DNA of 64,000 nt, taken from assembly GCA_021801265.1 (NCBI GenBank), contig JAJYYE010000002.1, forward strand, positions 62,001-126,000. The letters run 5' to 3'. Position 1 is the stretch's first letter; each line of letters opens with the position of its first letter. Source of the DNA: Pseudomonadota bacterium (GTDB taxonomy: Bacteria; Pseudomonadota; Gammaproteobacteria; Halothiobacillales; Halothiobacillaceae). Shown here one piece after another: positions 30,176-40,220 of the stretch. Both the position numbers and the translations under genes were made by a program. The notes below the pieces were generated by a model. The model did not search any database. It worked only from the letters and a program-made list of their open reading frames with translations, and had not been told where the DNA came from.

Positions 30176-31126
30176 CTAATTGCCACTCACGCCGAACCGG
30201 CGGAAATACCCCATCACCCGATCCGACAGCCCCGTGAGGAGTGGCTTGACGGACTGGGCGACCGAATGCCGCTTTTGAAGCTCGGGTTGGGTTTGCAACA
30301 CGTGGTGGTAATCCAGCGCCGACTGCACGTTTTTCACAAAGGTACCAACATGCCCCGGCTTGGGGTGGAAGCGGAACACTTGGCCCTGGTTAATCAGCTC
30401 AACCAACAATTCATAATCACGCAACTGAGTCAGCACAATCGTGACCAATTGCGGGTGCGATTGTTTGAGTGCCTTAATTGCGCCCACATGGCTTGCTTGG
30501 CCATCCTGCACATCGGTAACAAGCACACCAATGTTCTGCGTACTCAGTAGCTCCAGTGCTTCATCCAAATTTCGCGCCCAATGCAGCGGGTTATTCGGTG
30601 GCGTAGCACGTTTGACCAACTCATACGCCGCAGGGTCACGGTCAAGCAGCAAAATGCCGGGGCATGCTTCCGGCACCTCGGCGACCTCGGCCATCACGGG
30701 ATTCTGGCCGGACTGCGCCCGCCGCGCAGCAGCGGTAAAGTTTAATTCAGCGACATGCGCCGCGGCCCGTACATCGGCGCGAATCTGTTCGGTATCCCAC
30801 GGTTTCTGCAAAAAACGGAAAATCTCACCTTCATTCACCGAACCGATCACAGCGGCGAGATCTGCATAACCCGTCAACAGTAAACGCATCGTATGAGGGG
30901 ACGCCTCACGAATACCACGTAGCACTTCGACGCCCGGCATCATCGGCATGCGTTGGTCAGAAATCACCACCGCCACAGGCTGCGCCTGGACAAGGCGAAT
31001 GGCTTCATGGCCATCGTCGGTGGTTAGCACATTAAATTCATTGCGGAACAACATCTTAAGTGACCGCGTAATCCGCGTCTCGTCATCGACCAATAATAAA
31101 GTGGGTTTGAGATTGTGATCAATCAT
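30176..31126 (-). CDS. Tandem receiver-domain (REC-REC) response regulator
   Basis: REC1 LLVDDETRITRSL..VVISDQRMPMM..LLLTGYAD; second, divergent REC (ILLLDRDPAAYELV..VLVTDVQDG). Confidence 0.88.
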   Translation of the reverse strand: MIDHNLKPTLLLVDDETRITRSLKMLFRNEFNVLTTDDGHEAIRLVQAQPVAVVISDQRMPMMPGVEVLRGIREASPHTMRLLLTGYADLAAVIGSVNEGEIFRFLQKPWDTEQIRADVRAAAHVAELNFTAAARRAQSGQNPVMAEVAEVPEACPGILLLDRDPAAYELVKRATPPNNPLHWARNLDEALELLSTQNIGVLVTDVQDGQASHVGAIKALKQSHPQLVTIVLTQLRDYELLVELINQGQVFRFHPKPGHVGTFVKNVQSALDYHHVLQTQPELQKRHSVAQSVKPLLTGLSDRVMGYFRRFGVSGN

Positions 31127-31150: not shown

Positions 31151-32533
31151 TTAAGCTGAACGGGCCAATACGGGCTCATCAGTCAATAATTCTTCAGGGG
31201 GTGAGGGCATCCGTGCGGTGGGGGTATCTGGAGTACTTTGGGTGGTAGGGCTTGTTATCGGCAGACTAATTTCAAAACGGGTGCCCACGCCTTCTTTGGT
31301 GGCCAGGCGAATATCTCCGCCGTGATCTTTAATAATGCGATAACTGATCGATAAACCCAGCCCCGTGCCTTCACCGACTTTTTTTGTGGTGTAGAACGGT
31401 TCAAAAATGTGCGCCACATGCGCAGCGGGAATACCACTACCGTTATCTTCAATACTGATGCATGCAAATTCACCGCGCGTATAGGTACGAATCAAGAGCT
31501 TGCCTTGATCGTGGTCAATGGCTTGGGCGGCGTTGGTCATCACGTTGAGTAGCACTTGATTAATCTGGGATGGCGAACAGGGCACGCGAGGAATGGGCTC
31601 GAAACGTTTTTCTATGGTGACTTTATTTTTGAGGTGGTGGTACCCCACCGTGAGTGCAGTTTCGATGTTTTCGATTAAATCCACCTGATCGGTGGCCGCA
31701 CGATCGACCCGGGAAAAATTCTTCAAGCTCAACACAATGTCGCTGATTTGTTTTAAGCCGAATCGCGCGTCGTTAAACAGCTCGGTTAAATCGGCCAAAT
31801 CGCTCACCGCATCAAAATCTTGCCGAATCGCGGCAATCGTCTGGATACGTCCTTCTATATCGTGTGGTTCTGCCGTCTCGCTTAACAGCCCTTCAAACAA
31901 CCCATCGTATGCCTCGACCAGCGTGTGAATCTGGCCAAGCATTTCTTCAGCCATTTGCACGTTATTCCCCACATAACCCAGTGGCGTATTAATTTCATGC
32001 GCCACGCCAGCCACCATCTGCCCCAAGGCGGCCATTTTTTCGGACTGCACCAAGTGCGCCTGCGAGGCTTTAATTTCTTGATTCGCATGGGCCAATGCCT
32101 GATTTCGTTGACCTAAACGCTGCTCCACCAATTTGAGCACATCGGCCACATAGCCCAAACCCGCATAGCGACCATCGACTTCAACAAACACAAAGTCCTC
32201 GATAATGGGTGTGCGAATTTGGCTCGTCACCGCAGAAATAACCTTGGTCGTGGATTCAGCCAACGAAACAATAATTGGCAGCGGATTCATAAAATTATGG
32301 ATCGGCCGTTTGCCGTATAAATCGCGGGAGTATTTGTTCAGTAACAACTCCATTAAGGCGTGGCGACTCATCAGGCCAATCGGTCGATGATCTTCATCCA
32401 CGATGGCCAACGACAACATACGTTCAAAGCCGCCTGCCTGAAAACGCTCGGTAACTGCAGTGAGCGACATATCTGCAGTGAGGGGGGGAACGGGATCAAG
32501 CAGCGCACGCAAAGGGGATGACATCAGGAGCAC
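31151..32533 (-). CDS. Histidine kinase with N-terminal CBS-like input module
   Basis: H-box MVAGVAHEINTPLGY, N/G boxes (VLLNVMTNAAQAI, GEGTGLGLSIS), N-terminal IGLMSRHALMELLLNKYSRDLYGKRPI..VDGRYAGLGYVADVLK. Confidence 0.93.
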   Translation of the reverse strand: MLLMSSPLRALLDPVPPLTADMSLTAVTERFQAGGFERMLSLAIVDEDHRPIGLMSRHALMELLLNKYSRDLYGKRPIHNFMNPLPIIVSLAESTTKVISAVTSQIRTPIIEDFVFVEVDGRYAGLGYVADVLKLVEQRLGQRNQALAHANQEIKASQAHLVQSEKMAALGQMVAGVAHEINTPLGYVGNNVQMAEEMLGQIHTLVEAYDGLFEGLLSETAEPHDIEGRIQTIAAIRQDFDAVSDLADLTELFNDARFGLKQISDIVLSLKNFSRVDRAATDQVDLIENIETALTVGYHHLKNKVTIEKRFEPIPRVPCSPSQINQVLLNVMTNAAQAIDHDQGKLLIRTYTRGEFACISIEDNGSGIPAAHVAHIFEPFYTTKKVGEGTGLGLSISYRIIKDHGGDIRLATKEGVGTRFEISLPITSPTTQSTPDTPTARMPSPPEELLTDEPVLARSA

Positions 32534-32565
32534 TCACTGAGTTTTAGGAAGCGTGTACCCTAGAT

Positions 32566-35058
32566 TTATTTCATGACAATTTCATGATGAGCGGTCGACT
32601 TAACCCGCCACGCAAACGGCCATTGCTGTGGGCGGTATCCACGAACCTGCCCGTTGAGCAGTTCAAGCGCGCCCATATTTTCGGTATTCAATACCGCAAT
32701 CCCCGCGTCGTGATACCGCCGTACCACCGACGGATGCGGATGGCCAAATTGATTGAGTGCACCCGCGCTAATCAGGGCAATACGGGGCTGAACTGCGGCT
32801 AAAAATTCAGGAGAAGATGAGGTTTTCGAACCGTGATGCGGCACATATAACCAATCGGATTTCAGCACATGACGGCTAATCAAATCCCGCTCGGCACGCG
32901 CTTCAATGTCGCCGGTTAACAGCAAGCTGCCGCTGTGATCTTGCACCTGTAACACGCAAGAGCGGTTGTTATCACCCGTGTCTTCATCCCAACCCGCTCG
33001 AGCCTGATACAGTGTGAAACGCACGCCATCCCACACCCACTCCCTGCCATCTTCACAGGGTTCTGACGGCATTTCTCCCAACGGCTGACCGCTGATTACA
33101 GGCGTAGCGGGATATGCCTTTAGCACGCGGGCCAAACCACCCGCATGATCACGGGCATGATGGCTAATCACAATCTGATCCAGCCTACCAGCGTGCAACG
33201 CGCGCAGGGCGGGCAGCACCGTGCGCTCCCCCGCATCGCTCGCACCAAAAGCGGGCCCTGCGTCATACAGTAGCGTATGCCGCGCGGTCTGAATCACGAC
33301 CGCCAACCCCTGCCCCACATCAAGCAACCAACTATGCGCATGTCCCTGTGCTATCGTCGCAGGCCGATACAACACGGTAGGCAAACACAAGAGCAGCCCC
33401 CAATAGCGCGCCGGCCACGTGCGCGGCATCAACAGCCAAGCAATGCCCACGACCGCCAACCCAATAGACCAGCCTACCGGCGCCGCCACTTGGCTCGGGG
33501 GAAAGCCGTGCTCCAGCCAGGCCAATACCGAAAACAAACCCTGCGATAACAGGTTAATCAGCCCCATGATCGCGCTCGCCACGGCGGGCAGCCAGGTGAC
33601 GAATACCATCACCAGCAGTGCCAGGGGGGTAATCACGAACGTAATCAGCGGTACCGCCAATAAATTTGCCGGTAGTGACGACCATGCCACTCGATCAAAC
33701 ATCCACCAAACCCACGGCAACAAAGCCAAGGTCAAAATAATTTGCAGGCGCAGGCCATCACGCCAAAAATGCAGCACAGGGCGATGCTGTAGCCACAACA
33801 GCATAATCAGCACCGCACCAAACGATAACCAAAACCCTGCTGTGAGCACACCAAACGGTTCAAGCAACACCACGCCCATCAGTGCGACCAACCACAAATC
33901 GAGTAACCGCCAAGGCCGCCCCAACAGCAAACCCATCAACAGAATGCTCATCATAAACGCGGTGCGCTCAGTGGGCACCGACATGCCCGCCAGCAAGGCA
34001 TAACCCCACGCCGCGATGACCGCCACACCGGCTGCCACTTGTCGTGCAGGCAGGGCTTCACAAAAGCGGGTTCGCGCCCAAAGCCCACCCGCCAGCCAGG
34101 CAAACAACCCGGCCACCATGCCCACATGCAGGCCAGAAATGGCCAGTAAGTGATTGGTCCCTGTCGACAGCAAAGTTTCCCAATCGGCTTCACCGAGAAA
34201 ATCGCTATCCCCCATGGTGAGCCCCAACAACAAACCCCGACCCCGATCAGGCACACCGTTCGTTTCGGAGATGCGCAAGAGATCAGCACGCCACTGCGAC
34301 CGAATCGCGGCTAGATGGGCGACAAATCCCGCACCCACCTGCGCCACCGGTTCGGGCGCCCCCCGAACGCTGCCCGTGGCGACAATGCGCTGCGAAAATA
34401 ACCAGCGTTCATAGTCAAAACCGCCGGGATTCACGCTGCCATGGGGTGGCTTTAACCGCACATTGAACAGCCAAATCTGCCCACCGCGATAATCCAGGGG
34501 AGTACGGGCATAATCGCCCACGCGCAGGCGCTGCCCCGGCTGGAAACTTTGGCAGGCCGCCGCACTGGCTTCGTGTTCGACACGGTTAATGCTCAAGAGG
34601 AGTTGTTGCGCGTTGGCGCCGGGGCGGGGCAAGCCCTCAATCGTTGCGATAATGCGGCAACTGAGCGGCGCGGCCGATGGCGGTGGCACGCTGCGCACAA
34701 ATTCGCTGATATGCGCTAACGACCACCCCAAACCACTCAGTAATGCCAGAAAAGGGATGAGCCAATGCCAAAAATGCGCAATAGCGGGTTGTTGCTGAAT
34801 GCGAATAATCAGCAGAATCAGCAACCCCAAATTTAATACCGCCACAGGAACGGTCAGTAAATAGGTTTCGTGGACAAGCCACTGGAGCGCGGTGGCAAGC
34901 CCAGCGGTGAACCTCAAGCCAAGTTCAGGCCAACCCACAGGCACACCCATCGGCGCCCACGGCCAGAGCCACGCCAGTAACGCGCCTGAACACCAAGTCA
35001 CCAACCAAAACGAATTGAGATGTTGGGTATCAGTTGCCTGTGCGGGGATCACGTTCAT
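32566..35058 (-). CDS. comEC: DNA internalisation-related competence protein ComEC/Rec2
   Basis: Competence domain (LLAISGLHVGMVAGLFAWL), beta-lactamase-like C-terminus (LYDAGPAFGASDAGERTVLPALRALH..DQIVISHHARDHAGG). Confidence 0.95.
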   Translation of the reverse strand: MNVIPAQATDTQHLNSFWLVTWCSGALLAWLWPWAPMGVPVGWPELGLRFTAGLATALQWLVHETYLLTVPVAVLNLGLLILLIIRIQQQPAIAHFWHWLIPFLALLSGLGWSLAHISEFVRSVPPPSAAPLSCRIIATIEGLPRPGANAQQLLLSINRVEHEASAAACQSFQPGQRLRVGDYARTPLDYRGGQIWLFNVRLKPPHGSVNPGGFDYERWLFSQRIVATGSVRGAPEPVAQVGAGFVAHLAAIRSQWRADLLRISETNGVPDRGRGLLLGLTMGDSDFLGEADWETLLSTGTNHLLAISGLHVGMVAGLFAWLAGGLWARTRFCEALPARQVAAGVAVIAAWGYALLAGMSVPTERTAFMMSILLMGLLLGRPWRLLDLWLVALMGVVLLEPFGVLTAGFWLSFGAVLIMLLWLQHRPVLHFWRDGLRLQIILTLALLPWVWWMFDRVAWSSLPANLLAVPLITFVITPLALLVMVFVTWLPAVASAIMGLINLLSQGLFSVLAWLEHGFPPSQVAAPVGWSIGLAVVGIAWLLMPRTWPARYWGLLLCLPTVLYRPATIAQGHAHSWLLDVGQGLAVVIQTARHTLLYDAGPAFGASDAGERTVLPALRALHAGRLDQIVISHHARDHAGGLARVLKAYPATPVISGQPLGEMPSEPCEDGREWVWDGVRFTLYQARAGWDEDTGDNNRSCVLQVQDHSGSLLLTGDIEARAERDLISRHVLKSDWLYVPHHGSKTSSSPEFLAAVQPRIALISAGALNQFGHPHPSVVRRYHDAGIAVLNTENMGALELLNGQVRGYRPQQWPFAWRVKSTAHHEIVMK

Positions 35059-35076
35059 ACCCCTACGTTCCGGCCT

Positions 35077-35880
35077 TTAGTTTTTTAGCCGAAAAGCCAT
35101 CCCGCCGCCCGGCAAGCGCTCAATGGTAAAACGTTCACTCAATTGCTGCACCGATTCGGATGCGCCCAAAATCAGAACACCATTGGGCTGAAGCGCATTG
35201 GCCAATTGTTCAATGATTTTCATCTTGGTTTCCCGCGAAAAATAAATCAGCACGTTGCGGCAAAAAATGAGATCGAACCGACCCAGCGCCGACACAGGAT
35301 CCAAAAGATTCGCAACTTGGAACCGAACGCGCCGCGTGATTTCACTTTTCAGTTGCCAACCGTGTTCTACCCGGTCAAAAAATTGGTGTTTGCGGGCTGC
35401 CGATAACCCCCGCCCCAGCGATAAATCATCGTACATACCCAATTTTGCCTGTTCCAAAATACGGGATGACAAGTCGGTAGCCACGATTTCAACCGGGAAA
35501 GGCAGGTTCCTTTCACTGGCTAACATACTGATGGAATAAGGTTCCTGCCCCGAGGAACAAGCCGCCGACCAAATGCGCACTGAACGCTTCCGCGCGGCCT
35601 CGGCTTCGGGTAAAAACACATCACGCAGTGCGGCAAAGGGGTACTCATCCCGAAACCAGAGAGTTTCATTGGTGGTCATCGCCTCAATCACCGCTTTTTC
35701 CAGCGCGGGTTCATGGCGATGGAGCAGCCGTTCCACCAACTCATCCATCGAGGGAATCTGCAGCTCGCGTAACACGCGGCTCAAGCGGGTTTCAACCAGA
35801 TACCGCTTATCGACACTGAGCAGAATGCCACTGTGTTGCTCCAACAGCGCGCAGAATTTCTGATAGTGCTCTGGGCTCAT
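35077..35880 (-). CDS. cheR: Chemotaxis protein methyltransferase CheR
   Basis: IWSAACSSGQEPYSISML; FDLIFCRNVLIYFSRETK. Confidence 0.95.
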   Translation of the reverse strand: MSPEHYQKFCALLEQHSGILLSVDKRYLVETRLSRVLRELQIPSMDELVERLLHRHEPALEKAVIEAMTTNETLWFRDEYPFAALRDVFLPEAEAARKRSVRIWSAACSSGQEPYSISMLASERNLPFPVEIVATDLSSRILEQAKLGMYDDLSLGRGLSAARKHQFFDRVEHGWQLKSEITRRVRFQVANLLDPVSALGRFDLIFCRNVLIYFSRETKMKIIEQLANALQPNGVLILGASESVQQLSERFTIERLPGGGMAFRLKN

Positions 35881-35882
35881 CC

Positions 35883-36839
35883 CTACACCGATTCTGCCAA
35901 ATGTTTTGGTCGATTCTTGAGCGCTTCGGCCACAACCCGAGCCAGATCATCGGGATGAAATTTCGCAATGAACCGATCCGCCCCCACGGATTTCACCATG
36001 GTCTCGTTAAACACACCACTTAATGAGGAATGCAGAATAACGTACAGCGATTTGAGCCGCGCATCGCGCCGGATCTGCGTGGTAAGCGCATAGCCATCCA
36101 TAATCGGCATCTCAATGTCCGAGATCACTAAGGCGACGCGATCCAACTGCTCCGGTGACTCGTCGGCCCAGCGGCGCAAGAGATCAAAAGCCTCCTTACC
36201 ATTCGTGGCCAGCACTGTTTCCAGCCCCATTTGCTTCAACGTATTGCGTACCTGATTGCGGGCAACCAATGAGTCGTCCGCAACCAGGGCAATGCTGTCC
36301 GTCGCTGCCAATCCGCGCACATCGTGCAACACATCGGCAGAAATCTCTTCTTTGGCGCCAACCACTTTCGAAAAAATCTGTTCCACATCAATGATTTCAA
36401 CCAAAACCTGATCAACGCGCGCCACAGCCGTTAAAAAGTTGGAGGTATTGGTCCCCGTCGGCGGCGGCATCACCTCTTTCCATGAAAGATTCACGATGCG
36501 ATCGACTGAATGCACCAAAAATCCCTGTACCGCCCGGTTGTATTCGGTAATGATCACAAAGGATTCAGCGACCTGCTCCGGCGTCATGCGGGGATTGCCA
36601 ATGGCATCCGATAAATCAATAATCGTCATCGTATGACCACGCACATCTGCAATACCGCGCACCGACGAAGCCGCTTTGGGTACCTCAGTGAGCTTGGGGC
36701 AACGAATCACCTCACGCACTTTGAAGACATTGATGCCAAAACGTTGGTCATCACCTAAACCGAAGACCAGCAACTCAAGGCGATTATGCCCAGCAAGCTG
36801 GGTGCGGGAATCGACTGAAGACATCACATCTTTTTTCAC
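35883..36839 (-). CDS. cheV: Chemotaxis coupling protein CheV (CheW-REC)
   Basis: CheW N-terminus (FGINVFKVREVIRCPKLTEVP) and REC domain (LVISDIEMPIMDGYALT). Confidence 0.92.
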   Translation of the reverse strand: MKKDVMSSVDSRTQLAGHNRLELLVFGLGDDQRFGINVFKVREVIRCPKLTEVPKAASSVRGIADVRGHTMTIIDLSDAIGNPRMTPEQVAESFVIITEYNRAVQGFLVHSVDRIVNLSWKEVMPPPTGTNTSNFLTAVARVDQVLVEIIDVEQIFSKVVGAKEEISADVLHDVRGLAATDSIALVADDSLVARNQVRNTLKQMGLETVLATNGKEAFDLLRRWADESPEQLDRVALVISDIEMPIMDGYALTTQIRRDARLKSLYVILHSSLSGVFNETMVKSVGADRFIAKFHPDDLARVVAEALKNRPKHLAESV

Positions 36840-37226
36840 GGCACTGCTCTATAGTTAAGAATTTTGTGGACGAAGTTTACCGTTCTTTTCAGCCGTAATC
36901 TCTGCTCAACGATAAACATCAAGTTTTAGCCTTATCGGCACATGGGCGGTGATCTTTAACCGGCGGGCAAATACGATTGAGCTTAAACGCAGCGGTTCCA
37001 TTCGCCGGTTAACGCGCCCGGATAGCTATCGCTTGTACCAGGTCTTTCATCCTGATCGAAATATACTAAAAAATATATCGCAAGCCGCACGGCTGCGTTT
37101 GCCCGCCCAATCAAAAAAACCGAACAGTACGCGCGCCTTGTCAAAAATTTGAAACAAACAACGCGCATGATACTGAATGTTTTTCACTCGGATGCCGCCT
37201 TCTTCACCCCCTTTTCGAGCCCCATC

Positions 37227-38480
37227 ATGCTTAAAGAAATTCGCTTCGCGGGTGACTTGCTGATTGAAGCCAGCGCCATCACACCCGAATTCAAAAATGA
37301 AGATGTTCTGGCACTATTCTCGCAAAAATCCAGCCTGCAAAATTTACCAGTATTGCTTGACGATGGCCGCCCGCTGGGGCTTATTAACCGCAACTTATTT
37401 CACAGCAATATGACCAAGCCCTATTATCCCGAGCTATACAGCCAAAAAAGCTGTATTGCATTTATGGATAAAAACCCGTTAATTGTTGAGGCCAGCCTGC
37501 AAATTGAGCAACTGACTGCCTTGGCCGTCGAAACGGGAAACAAGATATTTACCGACGGCTTTATTATCGTCATCGATGGCAAATATCAGGGCATCGGCCA
37601 AGTACTCGACCTGATGCACGCCATGACCGAGCTCCAAGCGCGGCAGCATCGCCAATTGATTGAAAGTATTGAGTATGCCAGCGTCATTCAACAATCAATT
37701 CTCAACCCGTCCCGGATGGCACTGGATGCGTACTTTCCCGACAACCATTGGTTAATTTGGGCGCCCCGGGATGTGGTCGGTGGGGATATTTTTCATTTCA
37801 TCCCCACAAATGCAGCGGCGAAGGATGGAACGACTGAGAATGATGGCTTTTTAGCGGTTCTGTTCGATTGTACCGGGCACGGCGTGCCGGGCGCTTTTAT
37901 GACCCTGATTGCCGAATCAGCGCTGGCCCAAGCGATTGCGACGCACGGCGATCATGATCCGGCGGCGTTACTTGCCGCCATCAATCAGTACATCAAGCGC
38001 ACGCTCAACCAACATGATAAAGAAACCGGCACCCGCGAAAACTCCGATGACGGGTTGGATGGCATGATTGTTCGTTATGATAAAAATCAACAGCATCTGA
38101 TTTTTGCCAGCGCGCGCAATCCATTATTTATCATGAAACTAGATCACGATGCGCCGATCGAAATCTTAGCAGGTGACCGCAAAGGCGTGGGTTACGCCAG
38201 CACACCGATGAATGCCACCTGGCAAAATCATCTGGTTCCCATTCATCAACCCAGCCGAATTTTCTTGGTCACGGATGGCGTCATTGACCAAGTGGGCGGA
38301 GTTAAAAAAATTGCGTTCGGCAAACGTCGCTTATGCCATGTACTGGCCGACGTTCGCCATGCAGATGTGCCAACACAGCAAGCCGCCTTCGTTAAATCGT
38401 TTGCGGATTATCAAGGACAGCAAAGTCGGCGGGATGATGTCACCTTGCTGGCGCTTGATCTCATCCCGAATCCCACCTAA
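37227..38480 (+). CDS. SiaA-like PP2C/SpoIIE phosphatase with CBS-like N-terminus
   Basis: APRDVVGGDIFHF, LFDCTGHGVPGAFMTLI, FLVTDGVIDQVGG. First gene of a siaABCD-type set. Confidence 0.88.
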   Translation: MLKEIRFAGDLLIEASAITPEFKNEDVLALFSQKSSLQNLPVLLDDGRPLGLINRNLFHSNMTKPYYPELYSQKSCIAFMDKNPLIVEASLQIEQLTALAVETGNKIFTDGFIIVIDGKYQGIGQVLDLMHAMTELQARQHRQLIESIEYASVIQQSILNPSRMALDAYFPDNHWLIWAPRDVVGGDIFHFIPTNAAAKDGTTENDGFLAVLFDCTGHGVPGAFMTLIAESALAQAIATHGDHDPAALLAAINQYIKRTLNQHDKETGTRENSDDGLDGMIVRYDKNQQHLIFASARNPLFIMKLDHDAPIEILAGDRKGVGYASTPMNATWQNHLVPIHQPSRIFLVTDGVIDQVGGVKKIAFGKRRLCHVLADVRHADVPTQQAAFVKSFADYQGQQSRRDDVTLLALDLIPNPT

Positions 38481-38507: not shown

Positions 38508-39068
38508 ATGGACAATTTCCCCGCGCATGAACCGATTAATCCCTGTTTTCCGGGTTTGGATAGTCATCTGATTTTTTTCTACGCCGGTTATTTTTCACAA
38601 AATATCATCAATGCCATTGGCGATGCCGTGCGCTTACGGTTGGAACAATCTGAAACCTCGGGCAGTGTGCGACGCAAGATCTTTTCGACATTTATCGAAA
38701 TGGCACAAAACATTGTGCATTACTCCAGCGACAGCCTCACACCACTCGACCAAGCGACGCTAGAAATGCGCGCCGGCTCGGTGATGGTGACCCATCTCGA
38801 TAACACCTTTCACATTATTTGCGCTAACCCTGTAGAAGCTAACTTTGCCGAACAGCTGAAGCCCCTGCTCGAACCCTTGCGCGTCATGTCGACCGAGCAA
38901 ATTAAAGACGCATATCGCAAGATGCTGCGTACCGAGACCGGCGAGAACAGCAAGGGTGCCGGGCTTGGGTTCCTCACCATTGCCAAAGATAGTTCCACAC
39001 CAATTGAATATGGGTTCGAACCTGTCGCCAACGGCATGATCATGTTCACCCTTAAGGCCACGATTTAA
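38508..39068 (+). CDS. SiaB family protein kinase (DUF6272)
   Basis: FSTFIEMAQNIVHYS N-box-like motif; G-box region GENSKGAGLGFLTIAKDSS; operon position. Confidence 0.85.
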   Translation: MDNFPAHEPINPCFPGLDSHLIFFYAGYFSQNIINAIGDAVRLRLEQSETSGSVRRKIFSTFIEMAQNIVHYSSDSLTPLDQATLEMRAGSVMVTHLDNTFHIICANPVEANFAEQLKPLLEPLRVMSTEQIKDAYRKMLRTETGENSKGAGLGFLTIAKDSSTPIEYGFEPVANGMIMFTLKATI

Positions 39069-39096: not shown

Positions 39097-39483
39097 ATGG
39101 AAAAATTTTACTTAGCCGCGACCAGTAATACCCCCGAGGTTGATTTTGACTTCCCCGTACGCCGTCTGCTTTTAAAGGGCGAATCATATCCAGAAAGCGC
39201 CGCTGCTTTTTATGGCGATATTCTTGCCAAAACCGACCAGTTTATCGGTGAGTTAGCGCGCGAAACGGTACAAGTCAGCGTGCAACTCAATTACTTCAAT
39301 AGCTCCAGCACTAAAATGCTGTTCAGCCTTTTTGACCGACTGAATCAAGCGGCAGAAGAAGGCAATACCATTGTGCTGGATTGGCATCACGATATTGATG
39401 ATGAAACCATCCTCGAGTTTGGTCTTGAGCTCGCCGAAGATTTTCCTTCCATCGATTTTAACGCCCAAGCAATTGAATCCTGA
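39097..39483 (+). CDS. SiaC family regulatory phosphoprotein (DUF1987)
   Basis: GESYPESAAAFYGDIL; VQLNYFNSSSTKMLFSLFDRL; operon position. Confidence 0.9.
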   Translation: MEKFYLAATSNTPEVDFDFPVRRLLLKGESYPESAAAFYGDILAKTDQFIGELARETVQVSVQLNYFNSSSTKMLFSLFDRLNQAAEEGNTIVLDWHHDIDDETILEFGLELAEDFPSIDFNAQAIES

Positions 39484-40220
39484 TGGATAGTCAACCCCAA
39501 TCACCGCCCGATTTATTTGAGCGGGAAAAAACCGTGTTGGAACGCGCCATGCGGGTGCATGGCGATCCCTCACCGGCCGTGGTGCATTTCGCTTTGGCGG
39601 AGTTGATTGCAGAATATGAACGCGTGATTCGCGATATGCGCCGGGTGATTAGTCACTCCGACCGCACCGAACTGGAACTCAATATCGCCAATCAACGGTT
39701 AAGAGAGCTCACCGAAGCACTCACATTCCAAAATCGGCATGATGGATTAACCCGTTTGCTGAACCGCAACACGCTGATCTTTGAGGCCGAGCGCCTGCTC
39801 AAGCAGGCCCCCGTTGCGTTGATTCTGCTCGACATCGATCACTTCAAACAAGTGAATGACCGCTACGGCCACCCAACAGGCGATAAAGTTTTAACGGGGC
39901 TCGCTACCGCACTCAACCACCTTGTCAAAACGCCGAGCTTTTGCGGCCGCCTGGGGGGTGAAGAGTTTGCCGCAGTCATTCCAACCGAGCATATTCGTGA
40001 AGCCATTGTGATCGCCGAACACTTGAGCAGCCACATCCGTGACTTACGCTGCGCGCCTGAAGCCGGGTTGCGGATTACCGCATCATTAAGCGTGACGGTC
40101 GCACAGGCCGGTGTCTCCTTTGAAAAACTCTACGTTTGCGGCGACGATGCCTTATATCGCGCCAAACACAATGGTCGAGATCGTATTGAAATTGTATGGC
40201 GTCTGTTAGAAACCACTTGA
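39483..40220 (+). CDS. SiaD-like diguanylate cyclase
   Basis: Coiled-coil N-terminus, then ILLDIDHFKQVNDRYGHPTGD and RLGGEEFAAVIP. Start overlaps siaC stop. Confidence 0.9.
   Translation: MDSQPQSPPDLFEREKTVLERAMRVHGDPSPAVVHFALAELIAEYERVIRDMRRVISHSDRTELELNIANQRLRELTEALTFQNRHDGLTRLLNRNTLIFEAERLLKQAPVALILLDIDHFKQVNDRYGHPTGDKVLTGLATALNHLVKTPSFCGRLGGEEFAAVIPTEHIREAIVIAEHLSSHIRDLRCAPEAGLRITASLSVTVAQAGVSFEKLYVCGDDALYRAKHNGRDRIEIVWRLLETT

Follow-up and report, generated by a model that had tools for sequence, protein, structure and literature searches.

Homologous N-terminal modules, best read as divergent CBS pairs, on a histidine kinase and a soluble SiaA-like phosphatase of a Halothiobacillaceae bacterium

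Introduction

Can neighboring signaling proteins with different catalytic outputs share a sensor, and if so, do they also share its signal? This question is raised by a 64,000-nucleotide stretch of DNA (hereafter the window) from a bacterium of the Halothiobacillaceae (GenBank assembly GCA_021801265.1, contig JAJYYE010000002.1, positions 62,001 to 126,000), in which the genes for a histidine kinase and for a phosphatase resembling SiaA of Pseudomonas aeruginosa have their starts 4.7 kb apart. The initial annotation proposed that both proteins begin with the same sensor module, and that the two outputs may therefore respond to the same ligand or partner. Phosphorylation of SiaC at Thr68 is under the control of SiaA and SiaB in P. 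aeruginosa, where the N-terminus of SiaA consists of two membrane segments and a HAMP domain (PMC7647112).

Results

Both module strings quoted in the initial annotation were recovered, in place, from intact open reading frames. Smith-Waterman alignment of the kinase with the phosphatase string gave a score of 109, as compared with a mean of 23.7 (standard deviation 4.5, maximum 52) for 2000 shuffles, which places the similarity 19 standard deviations above the latter. The profile-profile comparison suggested as a check gave significant matches with hhalign: family alignments from the taxonomic order of the window matched at 98.7% probability (E 3.6e-15) over 119 columns with 25% identity, and wider families of 22 kinase and 33 phosphatase modules at 99.9% (E 2.7e-35) over 132 columns. 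Thus, the presence of the same module on both proteins is borne out, and, judged by these alignments, the two N-terminal modules are homologous. Only the description of a gap-free end-to-end alignment is wrong by one residue, as the strings comprise 85 and 84 letters, respectively. Without gaps they reach a score of 33 (15 identities), which climbs to 119 (24 identities) once a single gap is placed after IVE.

Based on Pfam, PDB profile matches, AlphaFold and Foldseek, both modules are best read as divergent tandem CBS (Bateman) sensors and not as an unfamiliar sensor. The Pfam CBS model detected the kinase and phosphatase modules at 4e-4 and 5e-4, both under the curated cut-off. A profile of nine module sequences matched almost exclusively CBS proteins in the PDB; the phosphatase module alone gave no match there as a single sequence, but the family profile did. 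In the AlphaFold model of the kinase module (pLDDT 87.6) two CBS repeats adopt a CBS-pair fold, the best Foldseek matches being the CBS pairs of CBSX1, MgtE and nucleotide-bound AcuB. The full-length phosphatase was modeled with a pLDDT of 89.9, and over residues 1-125 its helices and strands follow each other as in the kinase module. Since PP2C proteins appeared in the top 50 Foldseek matches of this model, its CBS part is assigned from Pfam, homology and the shared order of elements. Taken together, element order and profiles predict the same fold for both modules. They share with the Bateman module (PF00571) the fold, the tandem layout and the place N-terminal to or between signaling outputs, and differ from it by a divergent motif and by falling under the Pfam cut-off.

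The phosphatase gene lies in one run on one strand with genes for SiaB, SiaC and a GGDEF protein, an arrangement of the SiaABCD type (Table 1). Its open reading frame as called spans 37149-38480 on the plus strand and begins with TTG; because relatives point to a conserved ATG (MLKEIRFAGD) at 37227, translation probably starts there and not at the TTG. The PP2C part matches that of P. aeruginosa SiaA (6k4e) with an E value of 3.4e-44 by sequence and a TM-score of 0.93 to the target. By contrast, the SiaA equivalog model NF038263, which demands more than 700 bits, gave 191.5 bits and covered residues 154-436 only. At the level of sequence, this partial score reflects a homologous PP2C domain with a different sensor; the window phosphatase is devoid of a hydrophobic segment and carries the CBS pair in place of a membrane/HAMP sensor. 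When the Thr of the NTSS motif in P. aeruginosa SiaC is taken as the phosphorylation site Thr68 (PMC7647112), the window SiaC has a potential phospho-acceptor at this position, Ser69. Serine is found there in 77 of 77 SiaC proteins counted from loci of the CBS type, as opposed to threonine in P. aeruginosa.

Table 1. Features of the window discussed in the text (positions refer to the window).
Feature	Position	Strand	Remarks
REC-REC response regulator	30176..31126	-	Pfam Response_reg in two stretches; 24 bases downstream of kinase
CBS-CBS-histidine kinase, 460 aa	31151..32533	-	Without membrane segment; AHEIN phospho-His motif and HATPase_c
Kinase module (best read as Bateman), residues about 5-134	32132..32521	-	Pfam CBS 4e-4, PDB profile, AlphaFold, Foldseek
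ComEC/Rec2-like DNA-uptake protein	32566..35058	-	Between both module genes; named by eye from translation
CheR methyltransferase	35077..35880	-	Domain annotation
CheV-like CheW-REC protein	35883..36839	-	Domain annotation
CBS-CBS-PP2C (SiaA-like) phosphatase, 417 aa, soluble	37227..38480	+	Pfam, NCBIfam, PDB profile, AlphaFold; probable start
Phosphatase module (best read as Bateman), residues about 8-132	37248..37622	+	Pfam, profile, AlphaFold
Predicted single 44-residue helix from CBS pair to PP2C, residues 126-169	37602..37733	+	AlphaFold; coordinates from residue numbers
SiaB family protein kinase (DUF6272)	38508..39068	+	NF038262 over its cut-off
SiaC-like phosphoprotein	39097..39483	+	Ser69 (39301-39303) aligns with Thr of NTSS in P. 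aeruginosa SiaC
SiaD-like diguanylate cyclase (GGEEF)	39483..40220	+	Homology to SiaD

The second module gene encodes a two-component histidine kinase, as seen from its HATPase_c domain (2e-25), its AHEIN motif and the adjacent REC-REC gene; HisKA scored under the Pfam cut-off. Pairs of CBS-kinase and REC-REC genes recur in other families, this type of kinase usually being followed by the REC-REC gene, and the REC-REC protein is likely the partner of the kinase. Genes for CheR and a CheV-like protein are located between the kinase and phosphatase genes in at least three Halothiobacillus genomes (window, positions 35077-36839; loci L101 and L102). The genus of the window host is itself deduced from the named neighbors among the matches of a genome scan.

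Three copies of the module are encoded in the window genome, the third one being part of an EAL-CBS-GGDEF protein. Confinement of the module to the window locus or to the genus was rejected, as it is present in 57 of 370 genomes drawn from the class and in 124 of 398 drawn from the phylum Pseudomonadota. Other outputs, for which the initial annotation had recommended a search, include GGDEF and EAL domains in several orders: the loci fetched encode EAL-CBS-GGDEF, CBS-kinase, CBS-GGDEF-EAL, CBS-GGDEF, CBS-GGDEF-kinase and CBS-PP2C proteins, with architecture counts that do not represent frequencies because these loci were chosen partly for unusual lengths. An HD-GYP fusion, also suggested there, was not seen among these loci, which were searched for other domains. 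Frame lengths near 600-650 amino acids in the class and phylum surveys suggest that EAL-CBS-GGDEF is the commonest architecture. Locus L096 (2087-4231) encodes a 715-amino-acid PP2C protein of another, RsbU-like kind, with a CBS-like module and extra C-terminal sequence; the very long tree branch of this module renders its membership uncertain.

Genomes were scanned for the operon with a phosphatase-only alignment, and the best 80 of 395 confirmed genome matches were examined. All 80 encode CBS-PP2C, and in 76 of them genes for SiaB, SiaC and a stand-alone GGDEF protein are found nearby. The operon occurs in Halothiobacillus, Ectothiorhodospira, many Burkholderiales and several Enterobacterales. 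The four exceptions among the best 80 are L111, where an EAL-CBS-GGDEF gene stands for the cyclase gene, L152 with an EAL-CBS-GGDEF gene upstream, L121 in which no GGDEF gene was seen, and L122 on a short contig. L111 (Candidatus Nitricoxidireducens) has one more EAL-CBS-GGDEF gene, on the opposite side. In the even draw from the class, SiaC was detected in only 12 of 370 genomes, and the PP2C protein of most of these operons has a long N-terminus with membrane-like segments, not CBS.

The module tree comprises 91 modules over only 135 columns and has many open forks. All 22 kinase modules fall into a single clade (98/88) that is nested with modules of EAL-CBS-GGDEF proteins; the 33 modules of operon phosphatases form another (98/95), and a branch with 100/100 support separates them from the kinase modules. 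The closeness of the two genes is the only observation in favor of a duplication of the module within the window locus. This origin was rejected under the model used and is highly improbable, because a clade of only the Halothiobacillus kinase and phosphatase modules is worse by 52 log units (AU p 3.3e-5), and because each module nests among modules with a like output from other families. Grouping all kinase modules with all phosphatase modules in one clade is disfavored as well (p 0.017). According to this tree, the kinase and phosphatase modules come from separate old clades.

Genomic linkage of the kinase with the phosphatase was found in all seven genomes of the genus Halothiobacillus that have both on one contig, at a distance of 4.6-5.1 kb in five and 12.8 kb in two, and was seen in this genus only. 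Elsewhere the operon is located beside an EAL-CBS-GGDEF gene, as in Ectothiorhodospira and two other lineages, or without a nearby second module gene. Of the best 80 loci, 11 (from four lineages) have another module gene no more than about 6 kb away from the operon. Among 31 genomes of the class and phylum surveys with at least two module matches, a pair within 10 kb was counted by hand in only two. Kinase-phosphatase linkage in the genus and the proximity of EAL-CBS-GGDEF genes to the operon elsewhere suggest a functional grouping of genes for c-di-GMP signaling, which is no proof of a common signal.

Discussion

The soluble, CBS-headed SiaA protein described here represents a variation on the SiaABCD switch known with a membrane/HAMP sensor. 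As in P. aeruginosa (PMC7647112; structures 6k4e, 6k4f and 7e6g), a homologous PP2C phosphatase, SiaB kinase, SiaC phosphoprotein and GGDEF cyclase are encoded in one operon. Differences concern the soluble CBS sensor in place of two membrane segments plus HAMP, the Ser69 for Thr68 exchange, and scores under the NCBIfam equivalog cut-offs, although SiaB matches NF038262 over its cut-off. No description of a soluble CBS-headed SiaA was found in our literature search; publications naming SiaA, SiaC and CBS together are unrelated to such a protein, and a paper on the distribution of bacterial PP2C domains mentions neither CBS nor SiaA. CBS pairs on c-di-GMP enzymes, apparently the commonest setting of the module in our surveys, are represented by the EAL-CBS-GGDEF protein PA3258 of P. 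aeruginosa (PMC12900916), which was called a putative orthologue of RapA of Pseudomonas fluorescens (PMC9394441), and by the CBS/GGDEF/EAL protein DdpB of Bordetella (PMC12805831). They are likened here by their descriptions, and their output domains differ from those of the window kinase and phosphatase.

We consider it likely that a cytosolic Bateman module, of a family found mainly on c-di-GMP enzymes of Pseudomonadota, drives both the kinase and the phosphatase output via a helix. Building on the homology, predicted fold, gene order and phylogeny presented above, we infer that the module would dimerize and bind a small cytosolic ligand, most probably adenylate or another nucleotide. Ligand binding would then change how the helix that follows CBS2 is pitched or ordered, and this helix may couple to the PP2C dimer (phosphatase) or the dimerization helices (kinase). 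On the phosphatase side, the module would set the rate of SiaC dephosphorylation against the activity of SiaB, and unphosphorylated SiaC would activate the SiaD-like cyclase and raise c-di-GMP. For this last step we rely on the analogy with P. aeruginosa and on the GGDEF gene being homologous to siaD. In the kinase arm, the flow of phosphoryl groups to the adjacent REC-REC protein would be set. Control of PP2C phosphatases, kinases and cyclases via similar helical (coiled-coil) linkers with exchangeable sensors was proposed in a previous report (PMC12143880), and CBS is among the sensors joined by signaling helices to such outputs (PMC1592074). The predicted 44-residue helix and the near-constant length of the linker within each output class fit this view. 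RsbU/RssB-type PPM phosphatases likewise have a dimeric sensor joined by a helix to PP2C and exchangeable with the sensors of kinases or cyclases; the sensors given for them in the passages of that report on which we draw (PMC12143880) are receiver, HAMP, PAS and GAF domains, with CBS not among them.

Does one ligand set both outputs, as was put forward in the initial annotation? The Bateman fold binds many ligands, and the canonical adenosine-binding motif of CBS pairs is G-h-(S/T)-x-x-D, of which the CBS fold itself is independent. In the modules studied here this motif is not present in its canonical form. Its S/T position in CBS1 is occupied by Ser in most kinase modules and by Asn in most phosphatase modules, and no Asp stands out as conserved at the motif position of CBS1; CBS2 lacks the S/T but retains the Asp in most cases. 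For these reasons, it is uncertain whether the modules bind adenosine in the classical way. A single ligand for both modules would be compatible with their shared fold and with alignment columns that are invariant (G49, R53, G125) or nearly so (F26, F112, Y123) across classes, as well as with the kinase-phosphatase distance of 5-13 kb throughout the seven Halothiobacillus genomes and the second module gene near the operon in the 11 loci. Yet the two clades are deep and separate, columns in or next to the CBS ligand motif are fixed differently in kinase and phosphatase modules (S52 versus N52, P74-I75 versus S74-C75, D111 versus G111; columns 80-81 also differ), the neighbor of the operon is a kinase gene in Halothiobacillus only and an EAL-CBS-GGDEF gene elsewhere, and close module pairs were rare (2 of 31 genomes). 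Therefore, the claim of the same ligand or partner has not found support, and we regard one signal for both outputs as a tentative possibility at best; the two copies probably respond to related, not necessarily identical, ligands.

It has also to be considered that the modules bind no small ligand and act mainly as platforms for dimerization or docking of partners. The erosion of the nucleotide motif in CBS1 of all classes would fit such a role, as would the quite different N-terminus of P. aeruginosa SiaA, whose two membrane segments and HAMP domain serve the same operon (PMC7647112). By contrast, the invariant R53 and a GxYxGxG segment, kept across families as well as classes, point to a conserved site, and the closest solved folds include CBS pairs that bind nucleotides, so that we consider platforms of this kind unlikely and favor ligand-binding modules. 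Going further, one Bateman family for the c-di-GMP networks of Pseudomonadota might read a common cytosolic ligand and set three chemically different outputs per cell, namely SiaC dephosphorylation, the kinase/REC-REC relay and EAL/GGDEF turnover. The window genome, with one module gene for each of these outputs, prompts this speculation, which we deem improbable.

With these results, an apparent new sensor is replaced by a known fold together with a census of its outputs, and the SiaABCD biofilm switch is seen to have a widespread soluble form in which a CBS pair takes the place of the P. aeruginosa membrane/HAMP sensor. Natural fusions of one sensor to kinases, phosphatases and cyclases/phosphodiesterases constitute a test set for the exchange of sensors via helical linkers, as proposed in the report cited above (PMC12143880). 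Moreover, the module is a small soluble domain whose putative ligand could be found directly. Fusions of CBS-GGDEF to a histidine kinase are encoded at L067 (2019-5819) and L068 (2-2974) in frames of 1267 and 991 amino acids, respectively, the former, with its receiver-like sequence, resembling a hybrid kinase.
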